From the NCBI RefSeq assembly GCF_012275575.1, contig NZ_NPIH01000029.1, positions 1-64,000 on the forward strand: 64,000 nt of DNA, written 5' to 3'. Source of the stretch: Paraburkholderia sp. SG-MS1. Its GTDB lineage: Bacteria > Pseudomonadota > Gammaproteobacteria > Burkholderiales > Burkholderiaceae. A program made the position numbers and the translations under genes. The first letter of the stretch is position 1, and each line of letters starts with the position of its first letter. Below the pieces are notes generated by a model. It worked only from the letters and a program-made list of their open reading frames with translations, was not told the DNA's origin and did not search any database. Below, piece after piece: positions 17,038 through 34,149 of this stretch.

Positions 17038-17060
17038 TCCCAGGCAAAAAAAGGCAAATC

Positions 17061-18662
17061 ATGGCAGAGACGCAAACGCAGTCAGGAGCGCAAAGCGCCA
17101 GGTTCTCGCTCAACGACGATCACGTCGTCGTGATTATCGGGTCGGGCGCCGGCGGCGGCACGCTCGCCAACGAGCTCGCCCAGAAAGGTATCGACGTCGT
17201 CGTGCTCGAGGCGGGCAAGCTGCACACTCAAGGAGACTTCATCGCAGATGAATGGGCATCATTCCAGCAACTCGCGTGGCTCGACAAGCGAACGACATCC
17301 GGAACATGGCGTGTCGCCAAGGACTTCCCGAGTCTACCCGCGTGGATCTGCAAGACGGTAGGCGGAACCTCCGTGCACTGGGCTGGCGCGAGTCTGCGTA
17401 TCCAGCCACACGAGTTCAGGGCCCGCACGACCTATGGCGCGCTCGACAACGCACAACTGCTCGACTGGCCGCTCACTCGCGACGAACTCGACCCCTACTA
17501 CGATCGCGCCGAGAAGAAAATGGGGGTCACTCGCACTAACGGTTTGCCGGGACTGCCCGGCAACAACAACTTCAAGGTGCTATACGCAGGCGCTACCAAG
17601 ATCGGCTACAAGGAATGCAACACCGGTCGCATGGCGATCAATAGTGTCGCGCGCGATGACCGCACGCATTGCTTCCAGCGCGGTCTCTGCTTCCAGGGTT
17701 GCCGGTTTGGTGCCAAATGGTCCACGCTCTATACCGAACTGCCTCACGCGCAAGCTACCGGGCACATGGAGTTGCGCACCGAAGCGCACGTCGCACGCAT
17801 CGAACACGATGCACACGGCCGGGTGAACGCCGTGCTCTACTACGACGCGGCAGGCAAGCTACAGCGGCAGAACGCGCGTATTGTCGCCGTGGCGGGCAAC
17901 TCGATCGAGACGCCGCGGTTGCTATTGAATTCTCATTCCGGAAAATTCGCGAAGGGACTCGCGAACTCGTCGGATCAGGTGGGACGCAACTACATGCGTC
18001 ACACGACGGGATCGGTCTACGCGTCATTCGACGAGAAGGTCGAAATGTTCAAAGGTACGACGATGGCCGGCATCGTCGAAGACGAAGCACGTCATGATCC
18101 GAAGCGGGGCTTTGTCGGCGGCTACCACCTCGAGACGATCTCGCTCGGCCTGCCGTTCTACGCGGCATTCCTCAATCCGGGCGCCTGGGGACCGGAGTTC
18201 ACTCAAGCCATGGACCAGTACTCGCACACGGCCGGTCTTTGGATCGTCGGCGAAGACATGCCGCGCGCGACCAATCGCGTGACGTTGAACAGCACTCAGA
18301 AGGATCAGCACGGATTGCCGGTCGCCGACGTGCACTACGACGACCACCCGAATGACGAGGCCATGCGCGAGCACGCATTTAGGCAGAGCGAATCGCTGTA
18401 CAAGGCAGTCGGCGCAACCAGGGTTCACCGCGTCCCACCGTACCCGTCGACACACAATCTGGGCACCGCCCGGATGAGCGCCCGACCGGAGGACGGTGTA
18501 GTCAATCGCCACGGTCAGGCACACGACATTCCGAACCTCTTCGTATCGGACGGGAGCCAATTCACAACGGGGGCCGCGGAAAACCCGACGCTCACAATCG
18601 TGACGCTTGCGATTCGCCAGGCGGACTACATCGCCGAGCAGATGCAAAAGCGGGCAATCTGA
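17061..18662 (+). CDS. GMC-family FAD dehydrogenase (gluconate/sugar-alcohol dehydrogenase type)
   Basis: A 533-aa FAD enzyme with the dinucleotide fold VVIIGSGAGGGTLANELAQKG from residue 23, a Cys-containing stretch CFQRGLCFQGC typical of periplasmic three-subunit members, THNLGTARM, and the C-terminal flavin motif ENPTLTIVTLAI. It has no signal of its own, consistent with export on the Tat signal of the preceding subunit. It oxidises an alcohol or sugar acid and passes electrons to cytochrome c. The substrate cannot be read from sequence. Confidence 0.88.
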   Translation: MAETQTQSGAQSARFSLNDDHVVVIIGSGAGGGTLANELAQKGIDVVVLEAGKLHTQGDFIADEWASFQQLAWLDKRTTSGTWRVAKDFPSLPAWICKTVGGTSVHWAGASLRIQPHEFRARTTYGALDNAQLLDWPLTRDELDPYYDRAEKKMGVTRTNGLPGLPGNNNFKVLYAGATKIGYKECNTGRMAINSVARDDRTHCFQRGLCFQGCRFGAKWSTLYTELPHAQATGHMELRTEAHVARIEHDAHGRVNAVLYYDAAGKLQRQNARIVAVAGNSIETPRLLLNSHSGKFAKGLANSSDQVGRNYMRHTTGSVYASFDEKVEMFKGTTMAGIVEDEARHDPKRGFVGGYHLETISLGLPFYAAFLNPGAWGPEFTQAMDQYSHTAGLWIVGEDMPRATNRVTLNSTQKDQHGLPVADVHYDDHPNDEAMREHAFRQSESLYKAVGATRVHRVPPYPSTHNLGTARMSARPEDGVVNRHGQAHDIPNLFVSDGSQFTTGAAENPTLTIVTLAIRQADYIAEQMQKRAI

Positions 18663-18787: not shown

Positions 18788-19120
18788 ATGTGTCAAGTAT
18801 TGGTCAGCGCGGATCCGATGCTCTACGAATCGCGCACGCGATCGCTACGCATCCGCGGGGTCGTAACCACGGTGCGTATGGAGAATCTGTTTTGGGACGT
18901 GCTGCATGAGATTGCGCAGCGGGAGAAAATGACGACCAGCCAGTTCGCAGTCAAGCTCTATGAAGAGCTGCTTGACCTGCGCGGCGAGCCTCCAGCGAAT
19001 TTCACGTCGTTTCTGAGGGTTTGTTGTCTGCGCTACCTGTCGCGCGACATTGTGCTCGAGGACACCGCAAGCCAGGACACGCACCGGACCTTTCGCCCGA
19101 AGATCGTACATGGTGTCTGA
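18788..19120 (+). CDS. Ribbon-helix-helix (RHH_4-type) small protein
   Basis: A 110-aa protein with the RHH_4 pattern: SLRIRGVVTTVRMENLFWD as the beta strand and first helix, a second helix MTTSQFAVKLYEELLDLRGE, then NFTSFLRVCCLRYL. Such proteins bind DNA as dimers and are often found as lone genes in Proteobacteria. A strong AAGGAGGAACC precedes ATG 18788. It follows the GMC gene by 125 bp on the same strand and could regulate it; this is inferred. Confidence 0.8.
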   Translation: MCQVLVSADPMLYESRTRSLRIRGVVTTVRMENLFWDVLHEIAQREKMTTSQFAVKLYEELLDLRGEPPANFTSFLRVCCLRYLSRDIVLEDTASQDTHRTFRPKIVHGV

Positions 19121-19463: not shown

Positions 19464-21494
19464 CTAGCGTACGGGCCTCCGTTCCAGTTCCAGTAATCTG
19501 TAGATCTCCAACTTGCGATATAAGGTGCTGCGCGACACGCCCAACGAACGCGCTGCTTGTGCGAGATTGCCTTTCGCACCCTGTACCGCTTGCACGATCG
19601 CGGCGCGTTCGGTCTCCTCCAGACTGACCGAAGGTGCGTCGACCACGCTCACTACTTTGTCGGGAATCTCCGCTTCGTCAAGCATTTCTGGTAATTCGTT
19701 TAGCGCAACAGTGTCATCGTCGGACGTAAGCAAAAGATTTTCAACGACATTGCGCAACTCGCGAACGTTGCCCGGCCACGAATAAGCGCGCAGGACCGTC
19801 AGCACGTCGTCGGGGAACCGCCTGGTTTGAGTTCCATGCCGTTGTGCCAAGCTGCGATTGAAATGATCGACGAGTAACTCGACATCTCCTTCGCGTTCGC
19901 GCAGCGCAGGAATCCGTACCCGCGTGACGCTGACCCGGTAGTACAGATCACGTCGAAAGCGTCCACATTCGACTTCTTCGCGAAGGTTGCGGTTGGTCAT
20001 CGCGACCAGTCGAACGTCGACTCGTGTGGGTTGGGTATCGCCCAACCGGTAAATGACGCCTTCTTCGAGAACGCGTAGGAGAACAGGCTGCAGTTCAAGC
20101 GGCAATTCGCCGATCTCATCGAGACATAAGGTGCCGTTGTGCGCCAGCTCGAAGCGCCCCGGGCGCCCTTCGGAGGTCGCGCCGGTATAGGCCCCGCGCA
20201 CATGTCCGAACAGTTCGGAAGCAATCAGTTCTTTTGACGCCGCCCCGCAGTTGTATGCGACGAACGGACCGTTCGCGCCCTCTTCGCCATGAATAGCCCG
20301 CGCGAACAGTTCTTTGCCGACGCCGGTTTCTCCCTCGATCAGCACGGGCACACGCCGTCGCGCCAGTTGCTGACTGCGACCGACGGCGGTGCGCATCGCG
20401 ACGCTACAGCCCAGAATTTGCGAGAAGCAGTTGCGCTGCGGGTCAGCTTCCGTGCGGATCGGCTCCTGATTCGCGACCCGGCGAGCCGTGCCATGGGTTG
20501 CCGATCGCGACGGCACGATCAGCATCGCCCCGATCGTGCCACCTTCGACGACTACCGGATTGAACCACTCCGGGCGCAATCCTCGCGGAAGCCGCGCCGC
20601 CCATTCCTCGACAGCACGATCTTCGTCCATCCCCGGAAAGCGCTCTCCCAGGCCGACCGGTAGCGCGACTCGCGCTGTCGTGTGAACCAGTCTGCCTCGC
20701 CGGTCGATGGCGATCAGGCCGGCAGCATCAGATGACGAAAGACGTTGAAGGCAAAACGCCAACAGACGCATATGATCCCGCGCCACCTGCTCGGCAAGCA
20801 CCATTTCGATCTGCCGGGCCGCCGTGACCGCCAGAGTCAGATTGTTGATCTGATAGGTGGACGGCGGCCCCGATATGTCCAGCACACCAATGATATTAGA
20901 CGTGCCAGGCTCGCAGATCGGCGCAGCCGCGCAACTCCAGGTCTTGATGCCTTCGCAGAAGTGTTCGGAACCGTGAATGTAGGTCGGTTGTCCGGTCGCG
21001 AGCGCCGTGCCGATGCCGTTTGTTCCAGCAGTCGATTCACGCCAATCCCCGCCGGTCGTCAGATGAATTTTTTCGCCGGCATCGAGCGTGTGCAGATCGC
21101 CCGCTACTTTGAGAATGACGCCGTCGGCGTTTGTCAGCAGCAGAATGGAATGCGACTCGGTGAATAGATCAGCGGTTGCTGAGAAGAGGCGATCGGAAGC
21201 GGAGATGAGTTCCCGATGCCTCCAACGCAATGCGCCGACGGCATCGCCATACACCGCAAAGGGCGCAGCGCCGGCAGTGGGATTGACGCCGGCTTGCAGG
21301 CTACGCTTCCAGGATGCAAGCAATGCCGAGGGCACCGCCGTTGTCATCTCGCCCGCGAGAAATCGTTCCCAGCCGAGCATCGTGTCATTGTCGGAGTGAG
21401 AGACATTCGCGAGCTCGACCTGAGTCCGCGCGATCACGCTGCGCATGACAGCAAAGTCATCGCGACCCGAGATACCAGAAAGGTGCCTCGCCAC
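19464..21494 (-). CDS. mimR: Sigma-54-dependent activator (AcoR/MimR-like)
   Basis: A 676-aa enhancer-binding protein. The N-terminal 330 residues contain a GAF-type sensor (LLLTNADGVILKVAGD; STAGTNGIGTALATGQPTYIHG, given as its two ends). An AAA+ domain follows with Walker A GETGVGKE, the sigma-54 contact loop GAYTGA (the Phe-to-Tyr form of GAFTGA), and Walker B LCLDEIGEL. The C-terminal Fis helix-turn-helix is NLAQAARSLGVSRSTLYRKLE. The start is GTG 21494 with GGAGGAG four bases before. It lies downstream of the propane monooxygenase operon, which has two -24/-12 promoters, so it is the likely activator, as in mycobacterial mim clusters. Confidence 0.92.
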   Translation of the reverse strand: MARHLSGISGRDDFAVMRSVIARTQVELANVSHSDNDTMLGWERFLAGEMTTAVPSALLASWKRSLQAGVNPTAGAAPFAVYGDAVGALRWRHRELISASDRLFSATADLFTESHSILLLTNADGVILKVAGDLHTLDAGEKIHLTTGGDWRESTAGTNGIGTALATGQPTYIHGSEHFCEGIKTWSCAAAPICEPGTSNIIGVLDISGPPSTYQINNLTLAVTAARQIEMVLAEQVARDHMRLLAFCLQRLSSSDAAGLIAIDRRGRLVHTTARVALPVGLGERFPGMDEDRAVEEWAARLPRGLRPEWFNPVVVEGGTIGAMLIVPSRSATHGTARRVANQEPIRTEADPQRNCFSQILGCSVAMRTAVGRSQQLARRRVPVLIEGETGVGKELFARAIHGEEGANGPFVAYNCGAASKELIASELFGHVRGAYTGATSEGRPGRFELAHNGTLCLDEIGELPLELQPVLLRVLEEGVIYRLGDTQPTRVDVRLVAMTNRNLREEVECGRFRRDLYYRVSVTRVRIPALREREGDVELLVDHFNRSLAQRHGTQTRRFPDDVLTVLRAYSWPGNVRELRNVVENLLLTSDDDTVALNELPEMLDEAEIPDKVVSVVDAPSVSLEETERAAIVQAVQGAKGNLAQAARSLGVSRSTLYRKLEIYRLLELERRPVR

Positions 21495-21980: not shown

Positions 21981-23618
21981 TCACTTGCGCCCGAGCCGCT
22001 CAGCACCTGCGCCGAGCGCCGGCCCTGCGGTCGGATCGAGCGTGTCGGGCTTCTTGGCAATCAGCGTCTGCGTCGTCAGGATCAGTCCGGCCACGGACGC
22101 CGCATTACGCACTGCGCTGTAGCTCACTTTCACTGGATCGATCACGCCGCGCGCCAGCAGATCAGTGCATTCGCCGGTGCGCGCGTCAAGACCGATGCTG
22201 CCGTCCGACTTGGCGATCTGCGAGACGATCGCCGCACCGTCGAGTCCGCAGTTGGTCGCGATATGGAACAACGGGGCCGCCAGCGCGCGCTGCAACAACT
22301 TCGCACCCTGCTGTGCGCCCCCACGCATCCGCGCGATCATGCCTTCAAGTTCGATCGACACGCGAAGCAGCGCGGTGCCGCCGCCCGGCACAACTCCCTC
22401 CGCGATGGCTGCACGGGCCGCGTTGATCGCATCCTCGATGAGATGCACGCGACGCTTCTGCTCGACCGGCGTGGCGCCTCCGGCGAGAATCAGCGCAGTG
22501 CCGCCCGACAGTTTTGCGAGCCGTACCTGGTACTTGTCGCGCTCAACGTTCTCCGGCGCCATGTCGTATTGACGTGCGACCTGCTGCCGGCGCGCGGCAA
22601 TCGCCGTCGCGTCCCCGCCACCTGCCGTGACGATCGTCTGGTTCGAGGAGATACGCACCTGGCGTGCGCTACCGAGGTCGCGCAACGCAACCGCTTCAAG
22701 TTTGCCGCCCAGATCGCGCGCGATAACGCGGCCACCAGTGACGATCGCGATGTCCTCGAGCATCGCCTTGCGCCAATGACCATACTCGGGCGGATGAATT
22801 GCGGCGACGGCAGGACCGCCCGCATCGCGGCTCGCGAGCAGTGTGACGACGCACGCCGGCGCCACCTCCTCCGCGATGATCAGCAGAGGGCGTTTGTTCT
22901 GTCCGGCTAATGAAAGGAGCGCTGCGACCTCGTCCTGACTTTGCAGTCGCTGATCGGTCATCAGGATCAGCGGGTTGTCCAGCACGGCCTGCATCCGTTC
23001 GAGATCCGTGACCATGTGATGCGAGAGATAACCGCGATCGAACGCCATACCGTCGACGACTTCCAGTCGCGTCTCGACCGTCGTGCCGTATTCGACGTCG
23101 ACAATGCCATCCGCGCCAACCCGTTCCAGCGCCTCCGCTACCAGCCCACCTGTGAATTCGTCGTTCGCTGCAACGACCGCAACCGCACGTACCTCATCGG
23201 GACCACGCAACGGCGTGGCCGCCCGTTTAAGCGCCGCAATGGTCTCTTCGACAGCCAACTCGAGTCCATGCACCAGCTCGACCGGGTTGACGTCCTGACC
23301 GAGACAGGCCAGCCCGTCCTGGACCAGTGCATCGGCCAGCACGGTGGCAGTGGTCGTGCCGTCGCCGGCGACCTCGTTGGTTTGCTTCGAGACTTCACGA
23401 ACTACCTGCGCGCCGATGTTCTCGAACAGGTCTTCGAGTTCGATCTCGTTTGCGATGCTCACACCATCGCGCGAAATGATCGGCGACCCGATCGGGCGAT
23501 CGATGATTGCGTTCATCCCTTTGGGGCCCAGCGTGCCGCGCACGGCTTTCGCGAGCTTTGCAACACCGCGACCAAGGGCCGCGCGCGCTTCGTCGTCGTG
23601 CAACATGATGTTCGGCAT
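21981..23618 (-). CDS. groEL: GroEL-like chaperonin dedicated to the monooxygenase
   Basis: A 545-aa type I chaperonin with the ATP-binding signatures VRGTLGPKGMNAIID and AGDGTTTATVLADALV. It diverges from housekeeping GroEL and lacks the C-terminal Gly-Gly-Met tail, ending GAGAERLGRK. No groES gene is adjacent. ATG 23618 is 6 bases after AGGAGG; an ATG inside that site (23624) is too close. In mycobacterial mimABCD clusters a GroEL-like protein (MimG) is required to fold the hydroxylase large subunit; the same role is inferred here from its place in the operon. Confidence 0.9.
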   Translation of the reverse strand: MPNIMLHDDEARAALGRGVAKLAKAVRGTLGPKGMNAIIDRPIGSPIISRDGVSIANEIELEDLFENIGAQVVREVSKQTNEVAGDGTTTATVLADALVQDGLACLGQDVNPVELVHGLELAVEETIAALKRAATPLRGPDEVRAVAVVAANDEFTGGLVAEALERVGADGIVDVEYGTTVETRLEVVDGMAFDRGYLSHHMVTDLERMQAVLDNPLILMTDQRLQSQDEVAALLSLAGQNKRPLLIIAEEVAPACVVTLLASRDAGGPAVAAIHPPEYGHWRKAMLEDIAIVTGGRVIARDLGGKLEAVALRDLGSARQVRISSNQTIVTAGGGDATAIAARRQQVARQYDMAPENVERDKYQVRLAKLSGGTALILAGGATPVEQKRRVHLIEDAINAARAAIAEGVVPGGGTALLRVSIELEGMIARMRGGAQQGAKLLQRALAAPLFHIATNCGLDGAAIVSQIAKSDGSIGLDARTGECTDLLARGVIDPVKVSYSAVRNAASVAGLILTTQTLIAKKPDTLDPTAGPALGAGAERLGRK

Positions 23619-23658
23619 TGTCATCCTCCTATGTGTTCTATTTTTCCAACCGTCTGCT

Positions 23659-24489
23659 CTAACCTGCGCCTGCATTACGCGCTGCGATCTCCTGATAGGT
23701 GTGCCTCGTGACGAAATGGATCGGGTGCTCGTCGTCCGCATGGGCCGGCGGACCGGCGTCGGTTCCATAGCGCGCCGCAAGCAAACCGCGACACAACGCG
23801 CCATTGAATTCCGCATTGACGCCGACGCGTCGCAGCGCGCGTAGATAGGCGTCAAGCGTCGAAGGATCAAGTACCGCCGCAGCGCTATCGACGAATGCAA
23901 CCTGCAGCTTCTGTGATTCATCGGGACTTGCGCCAACCACGAAACGCCGCTCGATATAACGGTCGATCAGACCCTTCGTATGGGCATCGTCAACTGCGAG
24001 CAATGAGAGTTCGTCGACGCTCCATTTCACCAGCTCATATGCATCGTGTCCTCGCGCCAGCAGATTCGTCAGCAGCGCTTCCTGTCTGCGCTGAAACGCC
24101 TTGAGCAGAAACGTGCGTCGCAATTCAGCGAGATCGTCACTGGCGGCATCGCCGAAGCTCTGCTGGAAGCTCAGCCCTTTTGCCACCCCCGAATTGATTT
24201 CCGCTGCGTACATGTGCTCGTCGAGTTCGACAGTGACGCCCGTGACCCAAGGCAATGACGCAGCAGCCGCTCTCATGTCGTCGGCCATCAGAAATGCAAA
24301 GTTGGCGGCGCACCAGTAGGTCGGCAAACGGAATGCGATCTTCACGCCGCCTGCCGCGTCCGCAGCAACCGACGTTACGAAACCCAACGCGGTCACCGAC
24401 TCGTCCAGCTCAGGATCTACGACCACCGCCAGGCGCATCCAGATCTGAGCAGCGCGCTCGTCGGCGGAGCCAGGCGCTACGGCGCTCAT
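23659..24489 (-). CDS. MIP18/DUF59-family metal-sulfur cluster protein
   Basis: A 276-aa protein with an N-terminal MIP18 (DUF59, PaaD-like) domain: VVDPELDESVTALGFVTSV and the Cys-bearing YWCAANFAFLMADD near residue 60. This is followed by a helical C-terminal extension of about 170 aa that I do not recognise. The start overlaps the amidohydrolase stop as ATGA (24486-24489), showing tight coupling. Related genes accompany amidohydrolase and GroEL in other propane monooxygenase clusters. A role in iron or iron-sulfur supply to the reductase or hydroxylase is inferred. Confidence 0.82.
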   Translation of the reverse strand: MSAVAPGSADERAAQIWMRLAVVVDPELDESVTALGFVTSVAADAAGGVKIAFRLPTYWCAANFAFLMADDMRAAAASLPWVTGVTVELDEHMYAAEINSGVAKGLSFQQSFGDAASDDLAELRRTFLLKAFQRRQEALLTNLLARGHDAYELVKWSVDELSLLAVDDAHTKGLIDRYIERRFVVGASPDESQKLQVAFVDSAAAVLDPSTLDAYLRALRRVGVNAEFNGALCRGLLAARYGTDAGPPAHADDEHPIHFVTRHTYQEIAARNAGAG

Positions 24490-25511
24490 ACGCTGAGCGC
24501 GGGCGTCTGCCGCGTCTCTTTGAGCAGTGTCTTCTGGGCCTCGATATCGATGTCGTAAAGACGCGCCGCGTTGAGGCCAAGAATTTTTTTCTTTGCCGTC
24601 AACGATAGCTGCACGCCAGTTTCCTTGCTCACTGACTCGGGCAGTTCGAATGCCATGAATTTTTCGATCAGCCACTTCGGCGACCAGATCGCATAGTCGC
24701 TGCCGTACAGGATCTTGTCTTCGCCAATCCAGAACAACAATTCGGAAATCACATGCGCGAAGTACTCCGGCCGACTGTGAATGAACGGCAGCACTACCGC
24801 GAGACCGCCATAGACATTGGTTTCCTGCGTCGCAATCCAGCAGAAATCATCGAGACGCGGCAAGCCGCAATGCTCGACGATGAAATTCAGATTCTGGAAG
24901 CTGGTCGCAACGTCATCGACATCCCCGACATCGAACGCGTCGCGATTGAGCGGCAAAATGGTCGGCCCCTTGTGGACGTGGATGTTTTTGATGCCCAACT
25001 GCTCGCAGCGTTCGAGAAACCGGTACACGCCCGGCTCCGACAGTTTGTACCCCTTGCTGTCCCCGCGCCATTCGGCCGTATATAGCTTTACCCCCTTGAT
25101 CTTATACAGCTCGGACAATTCGGTGAGCCGGTCAAGCCCCGCTTCGCCATCGCGAGGATCGAATGCGCCATTGACGATAAACCGGTGTGGGTACTTCTTC
25201 TTGACCACGTAGTTCGCTTCAGTCGTATTGAAGCCATTCTTGTAAAAGTCGGTCAGGTAGGTCGGCTGGCAGATCGCCATGTCGTCGCAGCCGCTGACGA
25301 ACAAATCGTCGTACATGACCTCTTCGCCGTACTTGTCAAACTTCTCCTTCGGCCATAGGTACTCTTTGGGACTCAGATTCGTGTGATACGCATAGAAGCA
25401 GTCGATAAACTGTTGGCCGTGCACGTTCTTCAGGTTTTCCTTGCTGCCGTCCCAAAGATGGACGTGCCCGTCGATGACAAAGATGTCCTCGCCGTCAGGG
25501 GTTCTAAACAT
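24486..25511 (-). CDS. Amidohydrolase-family protein of the propane monooxygenase cluster
   Basis: A 341-aa metal-dependent TIM-barrel hydrolase. The metal motif H16-V-H18 lies in IDGHVHLWDGS, histidines follow in NIHVHKGPT and IVEHCGLP, and the late aspartate is in YGSDYAIWSP. It belongs to the amidohydrolase-2 (decarboxylase-like) group. Similar genes sit directly after the coupling-protein gene in Rhodococcus and Mycobacterium propane monooxygenase operons, yet their reaction is not settled. Here it is between the coupling protein and the DUF59 gene. Confidence 0.88.
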   Translation of the reverse strand: MFRTPDGEDIFVIDGHVHLWDGSKENLKNVHGQQFIDCFYAYHTNLSPKEYLWPKEKFDKYGEEVMYDDLFVSGCDDMAICQPTYLTDFYKNGFNTTEANYVVKKKYPHRFIVNGAFDPRDGEAGLDRLTELSELYKIKGVKLYTAEWRGDSKGYKLSEPGVYRFLERCEQLGIKNIHVHKGPTILPLNRDAFDVGDVDDVATSFQNLNFIVEHCGLPRLDDFCWIATQETNVYGGLAVVLPFIHSRPEYFAHVISELLFWIGEDKILYGSDYAIWSPKWLIEKFMAFELPESVSKETGVQLSLTAKKKILGLNAARLYDIDIEAQKTLLKETRQTPALSV

Positions 25512-25606
25512 GACAGTCGTCTCCGTGAGTTATCGCAAACCGGCTCACTCACGCGAAGCCGGTGCGTGTTGCGGGTTTGTACCGTTGCTTGACGTTTATC
25601 CGGCGC

Positions 25607-25960
25607 TTACTCGTAAGCCATTGCGTCATCCATATTGCCAAATAGCGCAACGGTTTCATCGTCGATCATCACCATGCGACCGTAATGCGTCGACGTGGAA
25701 ATCTCGAACAGATGCGGCGTCATCTCGCGCCCCAGCGCTTCGCTGATCTCACCCATCTTGAATTCGATTTTTCCCTGACCGTCGATTCGGATCATCGCCG
25801 GCAGGTAAGTGACGGTGATGCCGGGTTTAGTCGCCATCAGTTCGGCGATTGCACGCGCTTCGACGCTGTCGTTCATTGTGACGCCGCACTGGTGCGAGAT
25901 AGTTTGCTCGAAGCGCAGATCCTGGATCGGTTTGAAGATATTGTCGGTATGCACAGACAT
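25607..25960 (-). CDS. prmD: Propane monooxygenase coupling/regulatory protein
   Basis: A 117-aa member of the MmoB/DmpM coupling protein family, recognisable by CGVTMNDSVEARAIAELMATK and the following GKIEFKMGEISEALGREMTP. It binds the hydroxylase and tunes oxygen activation without carrying a cofactor. Gene order alpha, reductase, beta, coupling protein is that of prmABCD. It starts 41 bp after the beta-subunit gene. Confidence 0.9.
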   Translation of the reverse strand: MSVHTDNIFKPIQDLRFEQTISHQCGVTMNDSVEARAIAELMATKPGITVTYLPAMIRIDGQGKIEFKMGEISEALGREMTPHLFEISTSTHYGRMVMIDDETVALFGNMDDAMAYE

Positions 25961-26001
25961 GGCTGACTCCTGTTCGCGATTGATTCGAACGGTGGACGAA
26001 T

Positions 26002-27087
26002 TTACACTTCGACGGCAAGCGGGAAATGAATGCCGATTTCCTTCGCAATCATCTCGGCGCGTTCGACCGAACTGCTCAAGCAGTCGCTAAACTGCGATAC
26101 CTTGACGTGGGGCAGCGACCAGATCGGCTGCAGGTGCTTTGCCGCCTGCGCAGCGAGCTTACCGTGCGTTTCAAGCCATCCCGTGAACAGCGCACGATTC
26201 GCTTCACCATGGTTTGGATCGTTCGCGAGCATATGGAAGAGTTCGACAGCATTCGCAAGATTGCGCTCGTAGTCGCCTTCGGCGGCGGACACCACTGTCG
26301 GCGTCAGGAAATCATTCTGCGCGGCCGCGTCCTGCATGATGAAGCCGCTACGAAATAGTGTTGCAACCAGCGGCTCAAACACGACGTTGACCGCGAAATA
26401 CTTCTCCAGATAATCGTCCGCCCCCCCGATAGCCTCGATAGCGCGCCGCGTGTCCTGCCAGATCGGATCCGTAAGCCAGTGCTGTTTTCCGGCATCGAGA
26501 TCGAGACCCGGCAAATCAATCGCAATCTCACCCAGGTGCAGCGTCAGATCCTGTGAGAAACGCAGCTTGTATGAGGCGTTCGTAAGAATCGCGCTGTTGA
26601 TCATCTGCGTGTAACCGTAGCGCTGCGCGTGCATGGTCGCAGTCCCGAGACCAAACTCCGCGTGCTTGTAAGCACCCAGATGCTGTTCGAGAACCTTGAC
26701 CCACGTCTTGTCGAGACGCTTCGTTGCTCCTGAGCGCCGCGCGTTTGCAGTCGCGCTGGTGATCATCCCCACGATCGTCGATTGACGCTGGTAATGCGTG
26801 CGCTCCCACTCTTCGTCAACGGCTCGAAACTGATGCCAGTCCGTACATTTCGCCGCCGTCCACGTTTCCGAGTAGGTCGGCGTGCCGTCCGCAAATGCCA
26901 GTATCCAGTCTTGCAGCAGATAGCGTTTTGGGTCGGGCTGGACATCCACCGTCATGTCTTCGTAATGGCTTGCCTTACGCCCTTTCGGCTCGAAATAGTT
27001 GTACTTCCGGCTGTCCCAGCCGATAAACTGCGCAGCGCCCGCAGCGCCCGACTTGATCAAGACTTCCCGCTCTGCCAACGTACTCAT
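26002..27087 (-). CDS. prmC: Propane monooxygenase hydroxylase, beta (small) subunit
   Basis: A 361-aa helical protein of the soluble di-iron monooxygenase beta-subunit family. Typical elements are KYNYFEPKGRKASHYEDMT (18-36 or so), DWHQFRAVDEEWERTHY and the C-terminal SFDALSS-like region represented here by QFSDCLSSSVERAEMIAKE. It lacks iron ligands and scaffolds the alpha subunit in the hydroxylase. ATG 27087 is preceded by AAGGAGACACGAC. The gap to the reductase stop is 71 bp. Confidence 0.92.
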   Translation of the reverse strand: MSTLAEREVLIKSGAAGAAQFIGWDSRKYNYFEPKGRKASHYEDMTVDVQPDPKRYLLQDWILAFADGTPTYSETWTAAKCTDWHQFRAVDEEWERTHYQRQSTIVGMITSATANARRSGATKRLDKTWVKVLEQHLGAYKHAEFGLGTATMHAQRYGYTQMINSAILTNASYKLRFSQDLTLHLGEIAIDLPGLDLDAGKQHWLTDPIWQDTRRAIEAIGGADDYLEKYFAVNVVFEPLVATLFRSGFIMQDAAAQNDFLTPTVVSAAEGDYERNLANAVELFHMLANDPNHGEANRALFTGWLETHGKLAAQAAKHLQPIWSLPHVKVSQFSDCLSSSVERAEMIAKEIGIHFPLAVEV

Positions 27088-27158
27088 GTCGTGTCTCCTT
27101 GATTGCGTGGATCCGTTTATCCGATTGCCGGTGCACGTTTTTCCCGCCACCGCTGCGA

Positions 27159-28244
27159 TCAGCGAACTGCCTGCGTAAACTTGTCGAAGAAGAGCCGCTC
27201 CGGTTCGACGCCGGCCATCTGCAAGGCCGGAATCACCGCATCGATCATCGCGGTCGGGCCGCATGCGTAGGCATCGATATCTCCCACAAGCGACTCGTCC
27301 CGCAGCACGCGACTCACGACGTCGTGGATAAAACCCGTCTCGCCGGTCCACGCGTCTTCGGGTTGTGCATGCGACAGCGCTGGAATGAAGCGGAAATCAG
27401 GCAACCGGTCGGCAAACTCCGCGAACTTGTCGAGATAGAACAGATCACGGCGCGTGCGCGCACCGTAAAAGAAGCGCACTGGCCGCCGTTCGCCACTCCG
27501 AACGTGATCGTTCAAAATCGACCATAACGGCGACATGCCGGACCCACCGCCCACCAGCACCAATGGACCGGGTTCGTCTTCGCGCCTGAAACAGGTGCCG
27601 TATGGCCCCTTGGCGACGAGGCGGTCGCCCGGCTTCAGCCCTTCATCCAGTTGCGACGAGAACGCGCCGTTTGGGTATTTCTTGATAATGAATTGAAGCC
27701 GCCTTTCTCCATCCGGTGCATTCGCCATCGAAAAAGAACGCGTGATGCCCGCAGCCGGAATCGTCAGATCGACATACTGTCCCGCCCAGAATCGCAAGGG
27801 ACGCGAAAGCTGAACCTCGAGCAGGCGGATGTCGTGCGTGAGATGCGTAATAGCCGTGAGCGTCGCATCGTATTCGCTGACCGGGATCGACCTGCGCATC
27901 AGGTCTTCATCGTAATTCAGCAACTCGACGGTCAGATCGCTATAAGCGAGCGTCCGGCACAGAAGAATATGACCGGACTCGCGCTCGTAGTCGGGCAGCG
28001 CGAACGTCGAATACTTCTTCATCTCCACGTCGCCCTCCAGCAACAACGACTTGCAACTACTACACTGCCCTTCCTTGCATCCATGCATCACGGCGATGCC
28101 CTGGCGGAACGCCGCATCGAGGACCGTCTCGCCTTCCGCGACCGACATATCCACACCGACCGGCTCGAAGCGGACCGTGTGGAGCACGGGCTCCTTGTCG
28201 GCTGCCTGTACCGGCGGGCTCTCCTCTTTATCCATTACTTTCAT
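27159..28244 (-). CDS. prmB: Propane monooxygenase reductase (ferredoxin / FAD / NAD domains)
   Basis: A 361-aa electron-transfer protein. The N-terminal plant-type ferredoxin has C56-x4-C61-x2-C64-x31-C96 for one 2Fe-2S cluster. The FAD domain (RSFSMANAP) and the NAD domain (LVLVGGGSGMSPLWSIL, CGPTAMIDAVIPALQ) follow. ATG 28244 is placed 5 bases after GGAGG; a second ATG at 28235 is less well placed. It carries electrons from NADH to the di-iron hydroxylase. Confidence 0.93.
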   Translation of the reverse strand: MKVMDKEESPPVQAADKEPVLHTVRFEPVGVDMSVAEGETVLDAAFRQGIAVMHGCKEGQCSSCKSLLLEGDVEMKKYSTFALPDYERESGHILLCRTLAYSDLTVELLNYDEDLMRRSIPVSEYDATLTAITHLTHDIRLLEVQLSRPLRFWAGQYVDLTIPAAGITRSFSMANAPDGERRLQFIIKKYPNGAFSSQLDEGLKPGDRLVAKGPYGTCFRREDEPGPLVLVGGGSGMSPLWSILNDHVRSGERRPVRFFYGARTRRDLFYLDKFAEFADRLPDFRFIPALSHAQPEDAWTGETGFIHDVVSRVLRDESLVGDIDAYACGPTAMIDAVIPALQMAGVEPERLFFDKFTQAVR

Positions 28245-28271
28245 CCCGTCCTCCGTCCATATTGCGGCTCT

Positions 28272-28291
28272 GGAGCGGACTGCTCCGCTCC
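28272..28291 (-). promoter_or_regulatory. Strong hairpin between prmA and prmB
   Basis: A perfect 8-bp stem (GGAGCGGA / TCCGCTCC) with a 4-nt loop lies in the 62-bp gap after the alpha-subunit stop. It has no T-run, so it is more likely an mRNA-processing or 3'-protection element than a terminator. That would let the hydroxylase be made in excess of the reductase. Confidence 0.5.
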
Positions 28292-28306
28292 GGACGCTCC
28301 ATATCG

Positions 28307-29977
28307 TCAGTTCAGCGGTTTGATCTTGAATCCCGCTCGATACTCGGCAATGTGCTTTTCGCGTTGCTCGGGTGTCATGTCGCGCAGGAGCACGATAGGA
28401 CTCTGGATCACGTGGCCGCGCACGTGGTCGAGCGTCCACATGTCACGGTTGTCGAACCGCAGATGAGGTTGCGGGACCAGCGTCTTGCCGTCGCTGCGCA
28501 CGAAGCCCAGATCCTTGATGCAGTCAGCCAGATCCCAGCCGTGATAGCACTCTTCCCATTGGCGTCGGCCACTGAATCGCCCCATCGCCGGCGTCGGCCG
28601 ACCTTCGTATTCCGGTGCGAAGGCCACCTTGTGCGTCCAGCGACATAGCTCGGAACAGTATGTATAGAGCTTGCCGTCGACCTCATCCACGACGAAGTCC
28701 TCACGGATCAGACACGGCACGAGACAACTCCAGCAACGATGCGGGTATACGTAGCCGTTTTCCTGATCGAACAGCATGTTCGTCTCGCCCGGCACGCTCT
28801 TTCGTGCATACCATTTCCAGAAGTCGCCGAACTCCGCATACCAGCCCGGATACTTGTGTTCGAACCATTCGAAGTCCTTTTCTGTCTGGGCTTCAATGCG
28901 CCAGAAATTCACCGGCCAGCCAACCGAGAAGAACTGCGCAACCTTGTGCACATAATTCTTCTTGACAATGCGATCCCACGCCGCGCCGACGTCGTCATGA
29001 TGAATCTTGATGCCGTACTTTTCGAGCGGCAACATGTAGGTGCGGTAGTAGTCTTCGTAGATCCAGCGATGCCACAACTCCGCGTACGATTCCTTTTTCT
29101 TGTCACGATCCGTTGTTCCGTATTCGATGAACGTACCGATCGCCGCATCAACAATCGCATGGTTTTGCCAGAATGCGTAGCGCAGGTCGCGCTCCAGCAA
29201 AAGATGGTTGTCGGGGTCGTTGATGATCGACATGACCAGCGAGTGCCCGTTTCCGATATGACGGCTCTCGTCGGACTGCACCGAGAGAAACACGGTCGGC
29301 AACGCATAATCGCCGTTACGTGCCGCTTCTGACGGCATCGCGACGAACAGCGTATTCGTGAACGCCGTCTCTGCGACGACCTGGAGGAAGACGTTGGCGG
29401 CCGTCACTGCGTCGCCGGTCAGGAAGCCTTCGGCGAACTGGCGTCCAATGGTCGTTGCATAGCACTTGCCGAAAGCCGCTTCGGTGATGTCAAAGCCGGC
29501 CGGATCGATATAGTTCTCCATGTACCACTTCTTCAGATTCATTTGAATCGTCGAGTGCCTGAATTCGTCAACCATCTGCATCGTGAAGCCGGTGCGTAAT
29601 TCCTCGCCGGGGGCGAGACGGCCGAGCATCGCCATCGAACGCGCCGCTGAGATTTCCGGGAACGGGATGATCGCGAGGAACAACTTCATCCACTCGACCC
29701 AACGCGGCTCGACATTGCGAAACATGTCGCCACGCAAAGCGGCATCAAGCGCGCCGTAGACGCGATTGTCCTTTTCCTCCTGCATCGGAAAATACGAGCG
29801 CAACACCTGCTTCATCGGGTCGCGCGGTGCCTTGCTGATCTTGTAGTCGGTCGGGAAGGTCATTGCTTCCTGAACATAACTGGGCGTCCAGCCGAGATCG
29901 GCGACGCGGCGCGCGGCCTCGCCGATACTGATTCCACGCTGGGACGTGATCTTGTTTAGCGTTAATCCGTCAGACAT
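28307..29977 (-). CDS. prmA: Propane monooxygenase hydroxylase, alpha (large) di-iron subunit
   Basis: A 556-aa catalytic subunit. The six iron ligands are E108, E138 and H141 (VDEFRH), E203 (VAETAF), and E237 and H240 (SDESRH). Their spacings (30, 3, 62, 34, 3) equal those of E114/E144/H147/E209/E243/H246 in soluble methane monooxygenase. A cysteine-rich region near 400 ([16 protein letters not shown]) is common in this family. ATG 29977 follows AAGGAGAGCTCG; upstream in-frame codons are leader. Expected to oxidise propane, probably to 2-propanol, and other small alkanes or phenols; substrate range is inferred from family. Confidence 0.95.
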
Positions 29978-30109
29978 CGAGCTCTCCTTGTTCGGTTTCA
30001 CTGTGACCGTCGAATGACGGCAGCTTGAACACACTCGCAGTCGACCTGTCCGTCGAAGTTTTGGAAAACTTATCAAGTTGGACTCGTTCAGGTTGACCTC
30101 AAACTTTAG

Positions 30110-30125
30110 AGCGACAACCGTGCCA
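30110..30125 (-). promoter_or_regulatory. Sigma-54 promoter upstream of prmA
   Basis: The minus strand reads TGGCACG-GTTG-TCGCT, with GG and GC exactly at the -24/-12 spacing. The -24 element is a perfect consensus match. Predicted start is near 30099, about 120 nt before the prmA ATG, leaving a long leader. An enhancer-binding activator gene lies in the same cluster at 19464-21494. Confidence 0.8.
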
Positions 30126-30251
30126 GTTAACTTGCCCATGGAGACAAGTAAGCCTGGCCGCCGCTATCCCCGAACCACGCCCTTGTGGTGTTGCAATGCT
30201 GTCTTGTTCTGCGACGCTCCAGCAATCGCACACGTCCTGATTTGGGCCACT

Positions 30252-30458
30252 TCAGCGACCCGCGATCGCGCCACCATCCGCATTCACCAGCGTGCCGGCC
30301 TGCCCGTCGCCGCGCTGTGGTCCCTGCGCGATGAAGCGTGCCGCCAGAATCAGCGACCCCATCGCGAAGTCGGCTCCGTAGGCTGCGATCATCTGATCGG
30401 CAAGCGCGCCAACTTTCTCGATGAACTGTTCCTTGCTCACGCTCGTGTTCTGGGTCAT
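30252..30458 (-). CDS. 68-aa conserved-looking small protein in the monooxygenase cluster
   Basis: ATG 30458 with AGGAGACGACG before it opens a 68-aa protein: a helix with SKEQFIEKVGALADQMIAAY, then a second hydrophobic segment FAMGSLILAARFIAQG, and a Gly/Ala-rich tail. It is 38 bp after the WD40-like gene and 127 bp before the prmA promoter. I do not recognise a family. The strong ribosome-binding site and composition support a real gene, perhaps a small adaptor of the hydroxylase or of the CobW module. Confidence 0.65.
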   Translation of the reverse strand: MTQNTSVSKEQFIEKVGALADQMIAAYGADFAMGSLILAARFIAQGPQRGDGQAGTLVNADGGAIAGR

Positions 30459-30496
30459 CGTCGTCTCCTGATTTGCGCCGCGCGGCCACAATGGCT

Positions 30497-31588
30497 TCAG
30501 CGCGTGTTTTCAATCCGGAATAGCGCGTGCGGCAAATACACCAGCGCCATTTCGCCCGACTCGGTGCCAAACGCCAGGCGTCCGCCATCGGGCGACCATG
30601 CGAGCGCCACGACAGGTGCGCCACCACGGCCTTTGACGAAAAGAACGTCAGTGCCGCCGGGCTGACACAGCAGTACCGCGCCATCGTGATAGCCGACAGC
30701 GATCATCGTGAGCGTGGGGTGGCACACGACGCAGGTCACCGGCGACTTGCTCGTGCCGCCGCAGTGCTGCGGCGGTGCACCGCGAGGCGGGTCGAAGCGC
30801 CAGCACACGGGTCGTTCGCCACCACTCGTCACCAGCAGATGTCCGTCCGCCGAAAACGACAGCGCGCGCGGTTGCAGTGGATAGTCGGCCATTTCGATAT
30901 CGTCGCCGTCCGGCAGTCTCCAGCCGTGCAATGCGTTCTCCTGCATGCCGGTCACGACATAACGTCCATCGGGACTCCACGCGACCACACGATGAAAGCC
31001 GGGCCACGCCAGTAGTCTCGAGGCACCGGTTGCGGCAGACCAGATCGTGACGCCGCCCTGATGCGCGATCGCGAGCCGCTCGCCGGTCGTGTCGAAGGCG
31101 AGGCAGCCGGCGGGCGCTGGCAAGCTCAGTTCGTGCGACTGCTTGCCGGAAATACAGACGCGGCGACCGCTCGCATAGGCACGCCAACCCGAGCGCGACG
31201 CCGCAACCGCGTCGATCCAATTTCCGGGCAATGCGGCCAGCAGGTTGCTATTGCCGTCGATGTCCAGATGAACAAGTCGTCCATCGTCGCCGGCACTCAG
31301 GAAGCCGCCGGCTGGATCGCTCGCGAGGCTTAGACAGACGCCGTCATGCACGGCGAAGCGCGCAACGGGCGGAGGTGGGGCTTGCGGGTGAATCAGTTCG
31401 ATACCGCGTGTCGCGTGAGGTTTGAGCTGCGGCCCACCTTCCCACCTGCCGGCGGCAAAGGCGAGAGTGCCGTCGCCGAGCGCGAACGCCGCATAGTCGC
31501 TGTTGGCATTCCAGACAACTTCAAGCACCGGCGCCTGCGCCACCCAGCGGGCGCCAAGTAGATCGACCAGTGGAGCGGTTGCGTTCAT
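30497..31588 (-). CDS. WD40-repeat-like beta-propeller protein
   Basis: A 363-aa protein made of degenerate WD40-type blades. Repeating cores include [60 protein letters not shown] and [20 protein letters not shown]. No signal peptide, so cytoplasmic. The start overlaps the CobW stop as ATGA (31585-31588), so the two are translationally coupled. CobW and WD40 partners are, as I recall, also paired in metal-homeostasis operons of other Proteobacteria. A scaffold role for metal delivery to the monooxygenase is inferred. Confidence 0.8.
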
Positions 31589-32607
31589 GCGTCGATCTCG
31601 CAATGTTTGACGCTCTCGCGTAACTCGTCTGCGTCGAGTCCGCGGCCGATGAAAACCAGCCTGCTGTCACGCAACTCGTCGCCGCGCCACGGGCGGTCGA
31701 AGTCGGCGTCGACACTCATGTGCACGCCCTGAAATACGAAGCGCCGCTCGGACCCGGCGATGTCGATGATGCCTTTGGCTCGCAGCAGATCCTGCCCGTG
31801 TTCGGTCACGAGTTGCTGGAGCCATGACATGAAACGCGTACGGTCCAACGGTCGCTCGATATGCAGCGAGACGCTGCCGATGCCGTGACTATGCCGGCCG
31901 GTCATCGCGGCGGGTCGTGCCGGGACGCGCACACGGCGATAGTGAACGAGCCCCTCGCGTCGATCGGTCAGCTCGACCGCAACGGCGGCGTGCGGGGTCA
32001 ACGCAAGCGTGAGCGTCTGCCGATCGAGCAACGTCGCCAGCGGTACATCGCAATACGAGGTACGGACAATCGCGGCGACCGGGTTGATATCATGCACCAC
32101 GGCCTCGATCGCATCGAGAGCGTCGGCGTCGACCAGGTCCACTTTGTTCAACAGGATCGTGTCAGCCTGCGCCAATTGCACGGCAGCTTCGATGCTGGTG
32201 CGCAGCGCGGTCTCCTGATAGCGCGCATCGGAGACGCAGATTACGCTATTGATCTGGGCTCGCTGGCGCACAAGATCGTCGATCAAGAAAGTCTGCACGA
32301 CCGGCGCGGGATCGGCCAGCCCCGACATCTCGATCAGGATGCCGTCGAACCCGTCCTTGCGGCGGATCAGTCCCGACACGACCCGGATCAGATCCCCACG
32401 CACCTTGCAGCAGAGACAGCCATTATTCAGCTCGATGACTTCATCTTCAGCGCCGACGACCAGCGCGCCATCTATACCGAGCTCGCCGTATTCGTTGACA
32501 ATCACCGCATAGCGACACCCATGCTGCTCACGTAGCACGCGATTGAGCAAGGTGGTTTTACCCGCCCCAAGGAAGCCCGTCAGGACCGTCACGGGAATGC
32601 GCTTCAT
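31585..32607 (-). CDS. CobW/COG0523-family GTPase metallochaperone
   Basis: A 340-aa G3E GTPase. Walker A is GFLGAGKTT at 11-19, the metal-binding CLCC motif (CxCC) is at 64-67, the NKVD guanine-specificity motif is present, and the C-terminal CobW domain follows a short His-containing linker (RHSHG). Family members deliver zinc, iron or cobalt to client enzymes; nitrile hydratase activators belong here. It is coupled by ATGA overlaps to both neighbours (32604-32607 and 31585-31588). In this operon the natural client would be the di-iron hydroxylase or the zinc alcohol dehydrogenase; this is inference. Confidence 0.9.
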
Positions 32608-32927
32608 CGTGGATTCCTGTCGCGTGCTGCAAGCGTTATCGCGTTGAGCGCATTGAGTGCCTCTTCGAGCCGCGTGCGTTGCGCTTCGGTCGCGCGCAGC
32701 GCTCGTTGGGCTTCGTCGAAACGCTCCCGCAATTGCGCGATGTGCCGCGCACGCTCGGGCGTGTCATTTTCGCCACTGGCCCGCGAGTCGGCCAGCGCGC
32801 CTGCCAGTTCGATTTCCGCGCCGGCGAGACGACTTTCGCCGCGCAGGTGATCGGAGTTCAACTGCGTCAGCGCAACGACCAGTTGCACGTGTTCGGATAG
32901 CGGCGTGACGATTGGATGGGACGGCAT
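32604..32927 (-). CDS. Small coiled-coil protein upstream of CobW
   Basis: A 107-aa protein with no known domain. From residue 40 it is helical and charged, with heptad-like leucines and Glu/Arg runs ([33 protein letters not shown]), so a coiled coil is likely. It is read just after the alcohol dehydrogenase gene and overlaps the CobW start by ATGA. Function unknown; its position suggests a partner of the CobW GTPase. Confidence 0.7.
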
Positions 32928-32983
32928 GCGGCTCTCCGTTCACAGATCGCTACGGATGACGGTTTATCTCGACAGCGAACGAC

Positions 32984-34027
32984 TCAGGGAATCAGAACAG
33001 CACGCCCCTTGATCTTGCCGTGATGCAAATCCTTCAAAGCCTGATTTGCGTCGCTCAGCCGGTATTCCTTCGTCGCCAGATGCACAAGGCCGCGGTCGGC
33101 CAGCGCCATGAGTTCGACCAGTTCAGGATAGGTGCCGACCAGATTGCCGACGATCGTTTTTTCGCTGGTTATCATGTCGATCGTTGGAATTTCGATCTTT
33201 CCGCCATAGCCGACGATGTAATAGAAGCCCGCGCTACGCGTCATAGCAAGGCCCTTAGCGATCGCATCGCCTTCTCCAACGAAGTCGATTACCGCTTCCG
33301 CGCCGTTGCCGCGGGTCAGTTCGAGTACGCGCTCGACTTCATCGCCACTCGCTTGCACCGTGTGATGCGCGCCACACTCTTTCGCGAGTTGGAGTGCCGC
33401 CTCAGAACGATCCACGACGATCATTTCCGCCGCGCAGAGCGCGTTCAAAACCTGAATTCCAATATGACCGAGGCCACCCGCGCCAATAACCACGGCGAAC
33501 TGGCCTGGTAATAGATGGCGCGAAGCCTTTTTTGCCGCTCTGTATGCGGTGAGTCCAGCATCGGTGTAAGGCGCGACATCTTTCGGCGCGAGCGATGCGG
33601 GCAACTTTATCAGCGAGCGCTCACCGGTGGACAGGTACTCTGCATATCCGCCATTCGCGTTAATGCCCGGAAAACGGCTCTCGGACGCGTGCATGTCGTC
33701 GCCGCGCCGGCACGCAAGGCAATGGCCGCTGGTGACGAGCGGATGACAGATTACGGGATCACCTACCTTGACGCTTTGGACGGCCCGTCCTACCGCTTCG
33801 ACCCACCCGGCGTTTTCGTGCCCCATGATATATGGCAACGTCACGTCGACCTTGCTGCGCCAGATGCCTTCGACGACGTGCAAGTCCGTTCGACAAACGC
33901 CGGCTCCGCCGACTCTCACGATCACATCGTTTGGCCCCTGAATATCGGGCGTCGCGACTTCTTCGTAGCGAACCAGTTGTTCGCGAGACAACGACTCATC
34001 GTATTCGTGCAAGACGGCAGCTTTCAC
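32984..34027 (-). CDS. Zinc-dependent alcohol dehydrogenase, first gene of the monooxygenase operon
   Basis: A 347-aa medium-chain dehydrogenase. Catalytic zinc ligands C45 and H70-E71 and the NAD motif VVIGAGGLGHIGIQVL are present. The structural-zinc lobe is altered: in VTSGHCLACRRGDDMHAS only two of the four usual cysteines remain (C103, C106), with Ser100 and Ala114 at the other positions. The start is GTG 34027, seven bases after AGGAG. It probably oxidises the 2-propanol or 1-propanol made by the monooxygenase. A sigma-54 promoter lies about 45 bp upstream. Confidence 0.92.
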   Translation of the reverse strand: MKAAVLHEYDESLSREQLVRYEEVATPDIQGPNDVIVRVGGAGVCRTDLHVVEGIWRSKVDVTLPYIMGHENAGWVEAVGRAVQSVKVGDPVICHPLVTSGHCLACRRGDDMHASESRFPGINANGGYAEYLSTGERSLIKLPASLAPKDVAPYTDAGLTAYRAAKKASRHLLPGQFAVVIGAGGLGHIGIQVLNALCAAEMIVVDRSEAALQLAKECGAHHTVQASGDEVERVLELTRGNGAEAVIDFVGEGDAIAKGLAMTRSAGFYYIVGYGGKIEIPTIDMITSEKTIVGNLVGTYPELVELMALADRGLVHLATKEYRLSDANQALKDLHHGKIKGRAVLIP

Positions 34028-34071
34028 AGTTTGTCTCCTGAATTGTCTTTTAATGTGCTTGCGTTGGGCTA

Positions 34072-34088
34072 AGCAAAGAGCACGCCAA
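34072..34088 (-). promoter_or_regulatory. Sigma-54 promoter upstream of the alcohol dehydrogenase
   Basis: The minus strand reads TTGGCGTG-CTCT-TTGCT, with GG/GC at the correct -24/-12 spacing and a perfect TTGC -12 box. Predicted start is near 34061, about 34 nt before the GTG. Immediately upstream (34099-34112) is a perfect 14-bp palindrome AGACTG-CT-CAGTCT that could bind a protein. Confidence 0.8.
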
Positions 34089-34149
34089 TCTTGTCAATAG
34101 ACTGCTCAGTCTGGCAGACGCCGTGCCCGCGCCATTTCCACGGCGGCCC

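Follow-up and report, generated by a model that had tools for sequence, protein, structure and literature searches.

We describe a gene cluster for a propane monooxygenase (PrMO), one of the soluble di-iron monooxygenases (SDIMO), in a window of 64,000 nucleotides from the draft genome of Paraburkholderia sp. SG-MS1 (contig NZ_NPIH01000029.1, positions 1 to 64,000). Thirteen genes run along the minus strand from 34027 to 19464, the PrMO cluster spanning approximately 12 kb, and are given below in order of transcription together with two sigma-54 promoter-like elements. Fractions of 80 loci, here and throughout, refer to the best 80 of 185 confirmed relatives of the hydroxylase alpha subunit from one scan, with features sought in the fetched flanks and with WD40 hits below 50 bits and CobW hits below 100 bits (e.g. 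L048, L045) left out.

34072..34087, minus: sigma-54 promoter-like -24/-12 element TGGCGTG-N4-TTGCT, 44 nt before the alcohol dehydrogenase start
32984..34027, minus: NAD(P)-dependent medium-chain alcohol dehydrogenase (ADH; Pfam ADH_N and ADH_zinc_N), predicted to convert 2-propanol to acetone
32604..32927, minus: sm107, uncharacterised open reading frame (ORF) of 107 aa, in 8/80 loci, plus L140 and L144
31585..32607, minus: CobW/COG0523 metal-binding GTPase with a GCLCC motif (PF02492 and PF07683)
30497..31588, minus: WD40 beta-propeller protein (PF00400)
30252..30458, minus: sm69, uncharacterised 68-aa protein, predicted two-helix hairpin, found in 71/80 loci
30110..30125, minus: sigma-54 promoter-like element TGGCACG-N4-TCGCT, 132 nt before the alpha start
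28307..29977, minus: PrMO hydroxylase alpha (prmA), 556 aa (PF02332, six di-iron ligands, tree placement)
27159..28244, minus: PrMO reductase (prmB; 2Fe-2S, FAD and NAD domains)
26002..27087, minus: PrMO hydroxylase beta (prmC; PF02332, E 1.5e-72)
25607..25960, minus: PrMO coupling protein (prmD), MmoB/DmpM family (PF02406)
24486..25511, minus: amidohydrolase-family protein (PF04909), in 74/80 loci
23659..24489, minus: DUF59 (FeS_assembly_P) protein (PF01883), predicted maturation factor, in 72/80 loci
21981..23618, minus: GroEL-like dedicated chaperonin, MimG-like (PF00118), in 77/80 loci
19464..21494, minus: sigma-54 activator with GAF, AAA+ and Fis domains (PF01590, PF00158, PF02954), likely regulator of the cluster

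This bears out the preliminary description of the locus as a complete propane-type SDIMO operon in prmABCD order, as every gene it named is present on the minus strand in the order it gave; CobW, WD40, the two small ORFs, the sigma-54 activator and promoter motifs, and a neighbouring acetol gene set treated below are additions to it. Genes overlap by 4 nt at three junctions (sm107-CobW, CobW-WD40 and amidohydrolase-DUF59), a 274-nt gap precedes alpha and 486 nt separate the GroEL-like gene from the sigma-54 activator. A genome-wide domain search placed PF02332 in alpha and beta only, none of the genes in the cluster encodes a Rieske ferredoxin, and the alpha-reductase-beta-coupling order fits a group 5 SDIMO. 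The closest solved chain to the ADH is 1h2b_A (E 4e-99), the amidohydrolase has no PDB relative at 1e-5 and sm107 has no Pfam match over cut-off.

Identity and distribution of the monooxygenase

The six di-iron ligands of alpha (E108, E138, H141, E203, E237 and H240) stand where the preliminary description had placed them and are invariant across an alignment of 12 sequences. In a maximum likelihood tree of 64 rows, made by quick search with support from the Shimodaira-Hasegawa-like approximate likelihood ratio test (SH-aLRT) only, one clade of 54 rows (SH-aLRT 99) takes in alpha and the actinobacterial PrmA sequences, among them PrmA of Pseudonocardia TY-7. A narrower clade of 46 rows inside it (SH-aLRT 96) unites alpha with Methylocella tundrae, Beijerinckia and further sequences, most of them not from Actinobacteria. 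The references for group 6, group 4, soluble methane monooxygenase (sMMO)-like enzymes, group 2 and group 1 all lie outside alpha's clade, in a tree where the Xanthobacter reference has a very long branch and group 3 consists of two sMMO-like sequences only. The reference labels for groups other than 6 are ones that we take to be correct. A group 6 identity of alpha was rejected because it does not cluster with SmoA, the group 6 labels following the available text of PMC11057499, and a group 4 or phenol/toluene hydroxylase identity was rejected on the same placement. Since alpha stands apart from the alkene and phenol hydroxylase references, the grouping that the preliminary description had itself named as damaging to its claim is not what the tree returned. 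Because of this placement we assign the operon, as judged by sequence, to the Methylocella-type clade of group 5 SDIMO (PrMO), which the accessible part of PMC7660913 presents as a distinct cluster common to diverse organisms, with group 5 PrMO present in all Methylocella strains.

With the Methylocella PrMO the cluster shares 80% alpha identity (M. tundrae), the ABCD gene order, a GroEL gene and a sigma-54 regulator directly afterwards and a GMC/VOC/cytochrome set in the locus; the M. tundrae locus differs in being without ADH, amidohydrolase, DUF59, sm69, WD40 and CobW within 10 kb. Actinobacterial PrmABCD (Gordonia, Pseudonocardia TY-7, Rhodococcus) and mycobacterial MimABCD are likewise group 5 systems with the ABCD order. 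Actinobacterial PrmA is the sister clade in the tree, MimA itself not being among its rows, the alpha of two Rhodococcus plasmids is approximately 64% identical to that of the window, and the window's coupling protein, for which MimD is the top NCBIfam model, reaches 112.8 bits and so falls below that model's cut-off of 150. Group 6 SmoABCD is also a soluble di-iron alkane monooxygenase with GroEL nearby, going by the available text of PMC11057499, and differs in its approximately 37% alpha identity, its separate clade and a beta gene directly after alpha.

A full proteobacterial version, regarded as unusual in the preliminary description, turns out to be no exception, as the best 80 of the 185 alpha relatives have 81-97% identity and come nearly all from Alpha- and Betaproteobacteria, and the betaproteobacterium Azoarcus DD4 has a group 5 PrMO according to the accessible portion of PMC6696649. 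Nor do ADH, amidohydrolase, DUF59 and chaperonin stand as unusual extras, since the same genes adjoin alpha in Rhodococcus aetherivorans and are common in the 80 loci (ADH within the flanks of 72), and they are partly named for other actinobacterial clusters too in the literature text available. The closest relatives of alpha, at 96-97% identity, belong to Caballeronia, Paraburkholderia and 'Burkholderia' strains. PrMO is not rare in Proteobacteria, yet it is thinly spread. An order-level sample of 250 genomes held PrMO in the window's own genome only (E<=1e-100), and tests were therefore moved to the family level, where the carriers number 8/249 genomes in Burkholderiaceae, 5/198 in the Bradyrhizobium family and 19/289 in the family of locus L047, a 20th genome there (G731) being added with its alpha at a contig end.

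The small protein sm69 and the CobW-WD40 module

The operon fits well into a kind already described. Its points of interest are sm69 and an optional CobW-WD40 module, by which the proteobacterial form becomes a variant. Neither Pfam nor NCBIfam has a family that matches sm69 (best Pfam E 0.014 over 38 members); 3556 relatives were counted in the database, and among the 120 matches listed the source-given names are all 'hypothetical' or 'uncharacterized' protein. Substitutions among ten Burkholderiaceae copies fall 333/116/791 over the three codon positions, and sm69 is therefore a protein-coding gene under constraint. In its AlphaFold2 model helices span residues 3-27 and 29-45, with block means of the predicted local distance difference test (pLDDT) of 95-98 over residues 11-40 and, overall, a mean pLDDT of 75.9 and a predicted template modelling score (pTM) of 0.51. 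Comparison with the PDB gave no convincing match by profile (best E 0.81) or by fold (best E 7.1), and no match to SDIMO gamma subunits was seen in a library with sMMO, toluene 4-monooxygenase (T4MO) and phenol hydroxylase (PH) entries, a comparison in which a short hairpin carries little power.

The distribution of sm69 follows that of PrMO closely. Among the Burkholderiaceae it occurs in 8/8 PrMO carriers and in the same eight genomes only; in the Bradyrhizobium family it occurs in 5/5 carriers and in the same five only, and three genomes with an alpha match alone (34% identity), classed as sMMO-like and not as PrMO, are without it. In the family of L047 it is present in 20 genomes, namely the 19 PrMO carriers and G731, whose contig ends inside alpha, after ADH-WD40-sm69. 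Pooled over the three families (736 genomes), sm69 is thus in 33/33 PrMO genomes and in 0/703 others at E<=1e-6; the sm69 scoring took in no more than 22-32 first-look candidates per genome, the absences being valid at that sensitivity, and two matches in the Bradyrhizobium family (E 3e-4 and 8e-4), of approximately 25 residues inside ORFs of approximately 317 aa, are not counted. Furthermore, all 17 whole genomes picked from the loci carry exactly one sm69 copy each, in six of them outside the fetched flank; G492 and G704 among these belong to the family samples as well, and four plasmid records searched beside the 17 genomes gave no sm69. Of 16 plasmids with a full-length alpha of at least 80% identity, 10 also carry sm69. 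Bradyrhizobium sp. BTAi1 (L032) is a laboratory strain whose fetched locus includes ADH, sm69 and the genes from alpha to GroEL. Owing to relatedness and linkage, the co-occurrence counts are not independent of one another.

The CobW protein has the G3E GTPase domain, CobW_C domain and CxCC motif by which COG0523 is recognised, and its motif cysteines C64, C66 and C67 are kept in 17/17 aligned sequences. CobW occurs in 16/80 loci, adjoining WD40 every time, and WD40 occurs in 54/80, adjacent to sm69 in 51 of them, as well as in 7/249 Burkholderiaceae genomes, all PrMO carriers (7 of 8), so the presence pattern is roughly nested from sm69 through WD40 to CobW. A conserved Cys/His metal site in WD40 was rejected, as H295 alone among its Cys and His residues is kept (53/56) in an alignment that leaves out WD40 under 60 bits. 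COG0523 subfamily 5 (Haas et al. 2009) shares with the window a CobW-like GTPase with a CxCC motif beside a WD40 gene, a likeness of motif and neighbourhood; its prokaryotic members cluster with WD40 genes and znuABC in the accessible text of PMC2770081 and are tied to znuABC and zinc, whereas here the pair stands inside a monooxygenase cluster. The same text has another COG0523 member activating Fe-type nitrile hydratase, for which GroESL coexpression could substitute. Iron or zinc delivery by CobW-WD40 would be plausible here. A literature search gave, among the matches listed, no pairing of a propane monooxygenase with CobW or WD40.

In L044, two ORFs at 4611-6822, judged by eye to be MoxR-like AAA and VWA-domain-like, lie a short way upstream of CobW-WD40-sm69-PrMO and are reminiscent of metalloenzyme-activating pairs.

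Regulation, substrate and a proposed model

Sigma-54-type sites were scored with one fixed consensus (maximum 15.5, threshold at least 13.0; 350 nt upstream for alpha), leaving out upstream regions below 300 nt, ADH hits below 340 bits and WD40 hits below 60 bits. A site of at least 13.0 precedes alpha in 65/81 sequences, the window included, and ADH in 48/74, against 4/243 control regions (reductase 2/82, beta 0/82, GroEL 2/79), and some sigma-54 activator of this kind is present in 69/80 loci. Bradyrhizobium loci such as L025 have a strong site before ADH, two genes upstream, and not before alpha, as would be expected if ADH, sm69 and alpha shared one transcript there. Among divergent WD40 operons 20/26 have a match of at least 13 in a wide region, with scattered sites and no control run.

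Just outside the operon interval, a plus-strand set with a predicted role in acetol and methylglyoxal metabolism occupies 15355-19120:

15355..15927, plus: ORF with a cytochrome c domain, its end matching the C-terminal part of DJ-1/PfpI, an apparent chimera
15915..16313, plus: VOC / glyoxalase I-like protein (PF00903; GloA model E 1e-35, below cut-off)
16423..17037, plus: twin-arginine translocation (TAT)-signal protein resembling gluconate 2-dehydrogenase subunit 3 (weak matches)
17061..18662, plus: GMC oxidoreductase, predicted acetol dehydrogenase (PF00732 and PF05199)
18788..19120, plus: RHH_4 ribbon-helix-helix protein (PF13467)

At the level of gene content this is the set that lies beside PrMO in M. 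tundrae, the comparison being with the Msil_1641-type acetol dehydrogenase; the GMC set also adjoins PrMO on Azospirillum, Bradyrhizobium and Methylocella plasmids and in Pandoraea, Azohydromonas and Roseobacteraceae loci, and a ribbon-helix-helix gene is annotated in other PrMO-related loci as well, including that of M. tundrae. Because the GMC set is present in the window and the same set stands beside PrMO elsewhere, the window would encode a route from propane through 2-propanol, acetone and acetol to methylglyoxal and onward.

We propose, as the probable reading of these observations, that the window holds a complete group 5 SDIMO cluster likely to convert propane to 2-propanol and acetone to acetol, with sm69 predicted to assist in the assembly, metal loading or gating of the hydroxylase. 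PrmB would take electrons from NADH and deliver them to the di-iron centre of PrmA/PrmC, with PrmD in control. The ADH would oxidise 2-propanol to acetone, PrMO would hydroxylate acetone to acetol, and the GMC/TAT/cytochrome set would take acetol to methylglyoxal, which the glyoxalase I-like protein would carry onward. Maturation of the hydroxylase would fall to the GroEL-like and DUF59 proteins, with sm69 acting on it alongside them, and CobW-WD40 would be an optional addition supplying or guarding a metal, either the iron of PrmA or the zinc of the ADH. The neighbourhood and Methylocella genetics speak for 2-propanol and acetone no less than for propane. In the available text of PMC7176365 the Mim cluster of A. 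chiangmaiensis DSM 45062 is strongly induced on acetone and on 2-hydroxyisobutyric acid (2-HIBA). Acetone carboxylase gamma had no match in the genome, in a search that was silent in control genomes too and so is not evidence of absence.

Several observations weigh against this model. The cluster's substrate is predicted from genes alone, and the role of sm69 is argued solely from co-occurrence, its model having no convincing PDB match. sm69 was not found on 6/16 of the plasmids above (four Azospirillum and two M. tundrae, whose chromosomes were not searched), an absence backed by profile search on two of the six; the fetched Azospirillum and M. tundrae loci are also without amidohydrolase, DUF59 and ADH. 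Two actinobacterial (Rhodococcus) plasmids with a group 5-like alpha are without sm69 as well. Conversely, 3 of 13 sm69 plasmids lack a full-length alpha: in Shinella HZN7 the alpha match spans 62% of the query, in Rhizobium sp. CB3171 (L136 10953) 37 alpha residues match with the reductase to GroEL genes and WD40-sm69 kept, and on the Phyllobacterium zundukense plasmid (L135 9543-15935) WD40-sm69 and an RHH/VOC/TAT/GMC set lie between two ISL3 transposases with no PrMO nearby. All three fit a loss of PrMO, and Phyllobacterium fits an independent role of sm69 too. As to the pathway, a GMC gene is in the flank of just 8/80 loci, a count softened because a set at the window's spacing would in most cases fall outside flanks of 10 kb. 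The accessible part of PMC7364539 attributes to sMMO the greater share of the 2-propanol that M. silvestris forms from propane, and to PrMO the 1-propanol, and assigns acetone hydroxylation to P450 candidates. Finally, residues 106-158 of the cytochrome c ORF, the apparent chimera, match TIGR01382 (E 2.5e-12). DJ-1/PfpI proteins are able to act on methylglyoxal. Given this DJ-1/PfpI-like end, the electron acceptor may therefore be impaired or different.

The cytochrome c and DJ-1/PfpI ORF looks like two neighbouring genes fused by deletion.

The preliminary description took the cluster for a propane catabolic operon with propane as the natural substrate, which we regard as rather unlikely. In its favour, alpha lies in group 5 next to the PrmA of propane-oxidising bacteria, Pseudonocardia TY-7 for one, and the predicted ADH for 2-propanol would suit it. 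prmA is required at high propane in Methylocella in the part of PMC7660913 available. The acetol/methylglyoxal set in the window counts against it.

For sm69, a tentative and somewhat less than even possibility is that it is an overlooked component of the proteobacterial PrMO ('PrmS'), either a two-helix missing small subunit or an obligate di-iron assembly factor docking on the hydroxylase. CobW-WD40 would then be an accessory that delivers metal, and in lineages that lack sm69 the enzyme would have become independent of it or would use a replacement. That sm69 instead serves the WD40/CobW cassette, itself a metal-handling or regulatory module, and is just carried along with PrMO, we consider unlikely. 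The adjacency of sm69 to WD40 in 51/54 WD40-bearing loci would suit such a cassette, as would the L017 genome, where sm107-CobW-WD40-sm69 and PrMO lie on different contigs, and the Phyllobacterium plasmid with WD40-sm69 and no PrMO nearby. However, sm69 is present in 18/26 loci without WD40 at the 50-bit cut (which a diverged WD40 could escape, as maybe in L051), it stands between ADH and alpha in G275 and after GroEL in Skermanella mucosa, and the eight Burkholderiaceae PrMO genomes have sm69 in 8 and WD40 in 7.

An enzyme acting mainly on another ketone, an alcohol or an aromatic such as phenol, as in mycobacterial Mim (MimABCD reportedly acts on phenol as well as acetone), with the acetol set as an independent neighbour, is improbable: the operon is without an adjoining GMC set in C. 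zhejiangensis L003 (12-kb flank) and Caballeronia SBC2 L097 (14-kb flank, with no DNA match there), yet the set stands beside PrMO in the Azospirillum, Bradyrhizobium, Methylocella, Pandoraea, Azohydromonas and Roseobacteraceae loci. The available text of PMC7176365 cites a title on phenol oxidation in mycobacteria.

The broad occurrence of the cluster among Proteobacteria of plants and soils suggests that acetone and 2-propanol, and not natural gas alone, may serve as substrates in nature. Interest in group 5 monooxygenases, which oxidise propane and acetone, extends to the removal of chlorinated and ether pollutants, and their active expression in other hosts reportedly requires a chaperonin. 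Should sm69 be an indispensable partner, some of the difficulty of expressing the proteobacterial enzymes would be accounted for, and the protein would offer a compact genome marker and a testable question on di-iron site assembly.

Possible mobility and neighbouring observations

In ten loci of Caballeronia/Paraburkholderia type, alignment with the window at the DNA level breaks off at approximately 34.04 kb, upstream of ADH. The other end of the alignment falls at approximately 19.5-19.75 kb in 9/10 loci, L008 ending at 22.9 kb with its fetched locus; that this end is an edge is shown only by L003 and L097 (12- and 14-kb flanks), as the other eight flanks end at approximately 18.3 kb or before. 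C. zhejiangensis has the same operon, without CobW, beside 2-methylcitrate genes. Taken together, these alignments are consistent with the cluster moving as a unit.

On a plasmid of Rhodococcus aetherivorans BW2 (L088 6989-13923), a group 5-like alpha with an altered C-terminus is followed by amidohydrolase, DUF59, ADH and GroEL, with no annotated reductase, beta or coupling genes, and looks like a relic. The PrMO of L016, titled Mycobacterium sp. KBS0706, is 92% identical to that of the window and nests among Proteobacteria, which may reflect a wrong label, a wrong assembly or a transfer. Elsewhere in the window, in an ABC-transporter region, two creatinase/prolidase-like M24 ORFs (38244-39368 and 43738-44967, the Pfam search covering the first) have similar N-termini.

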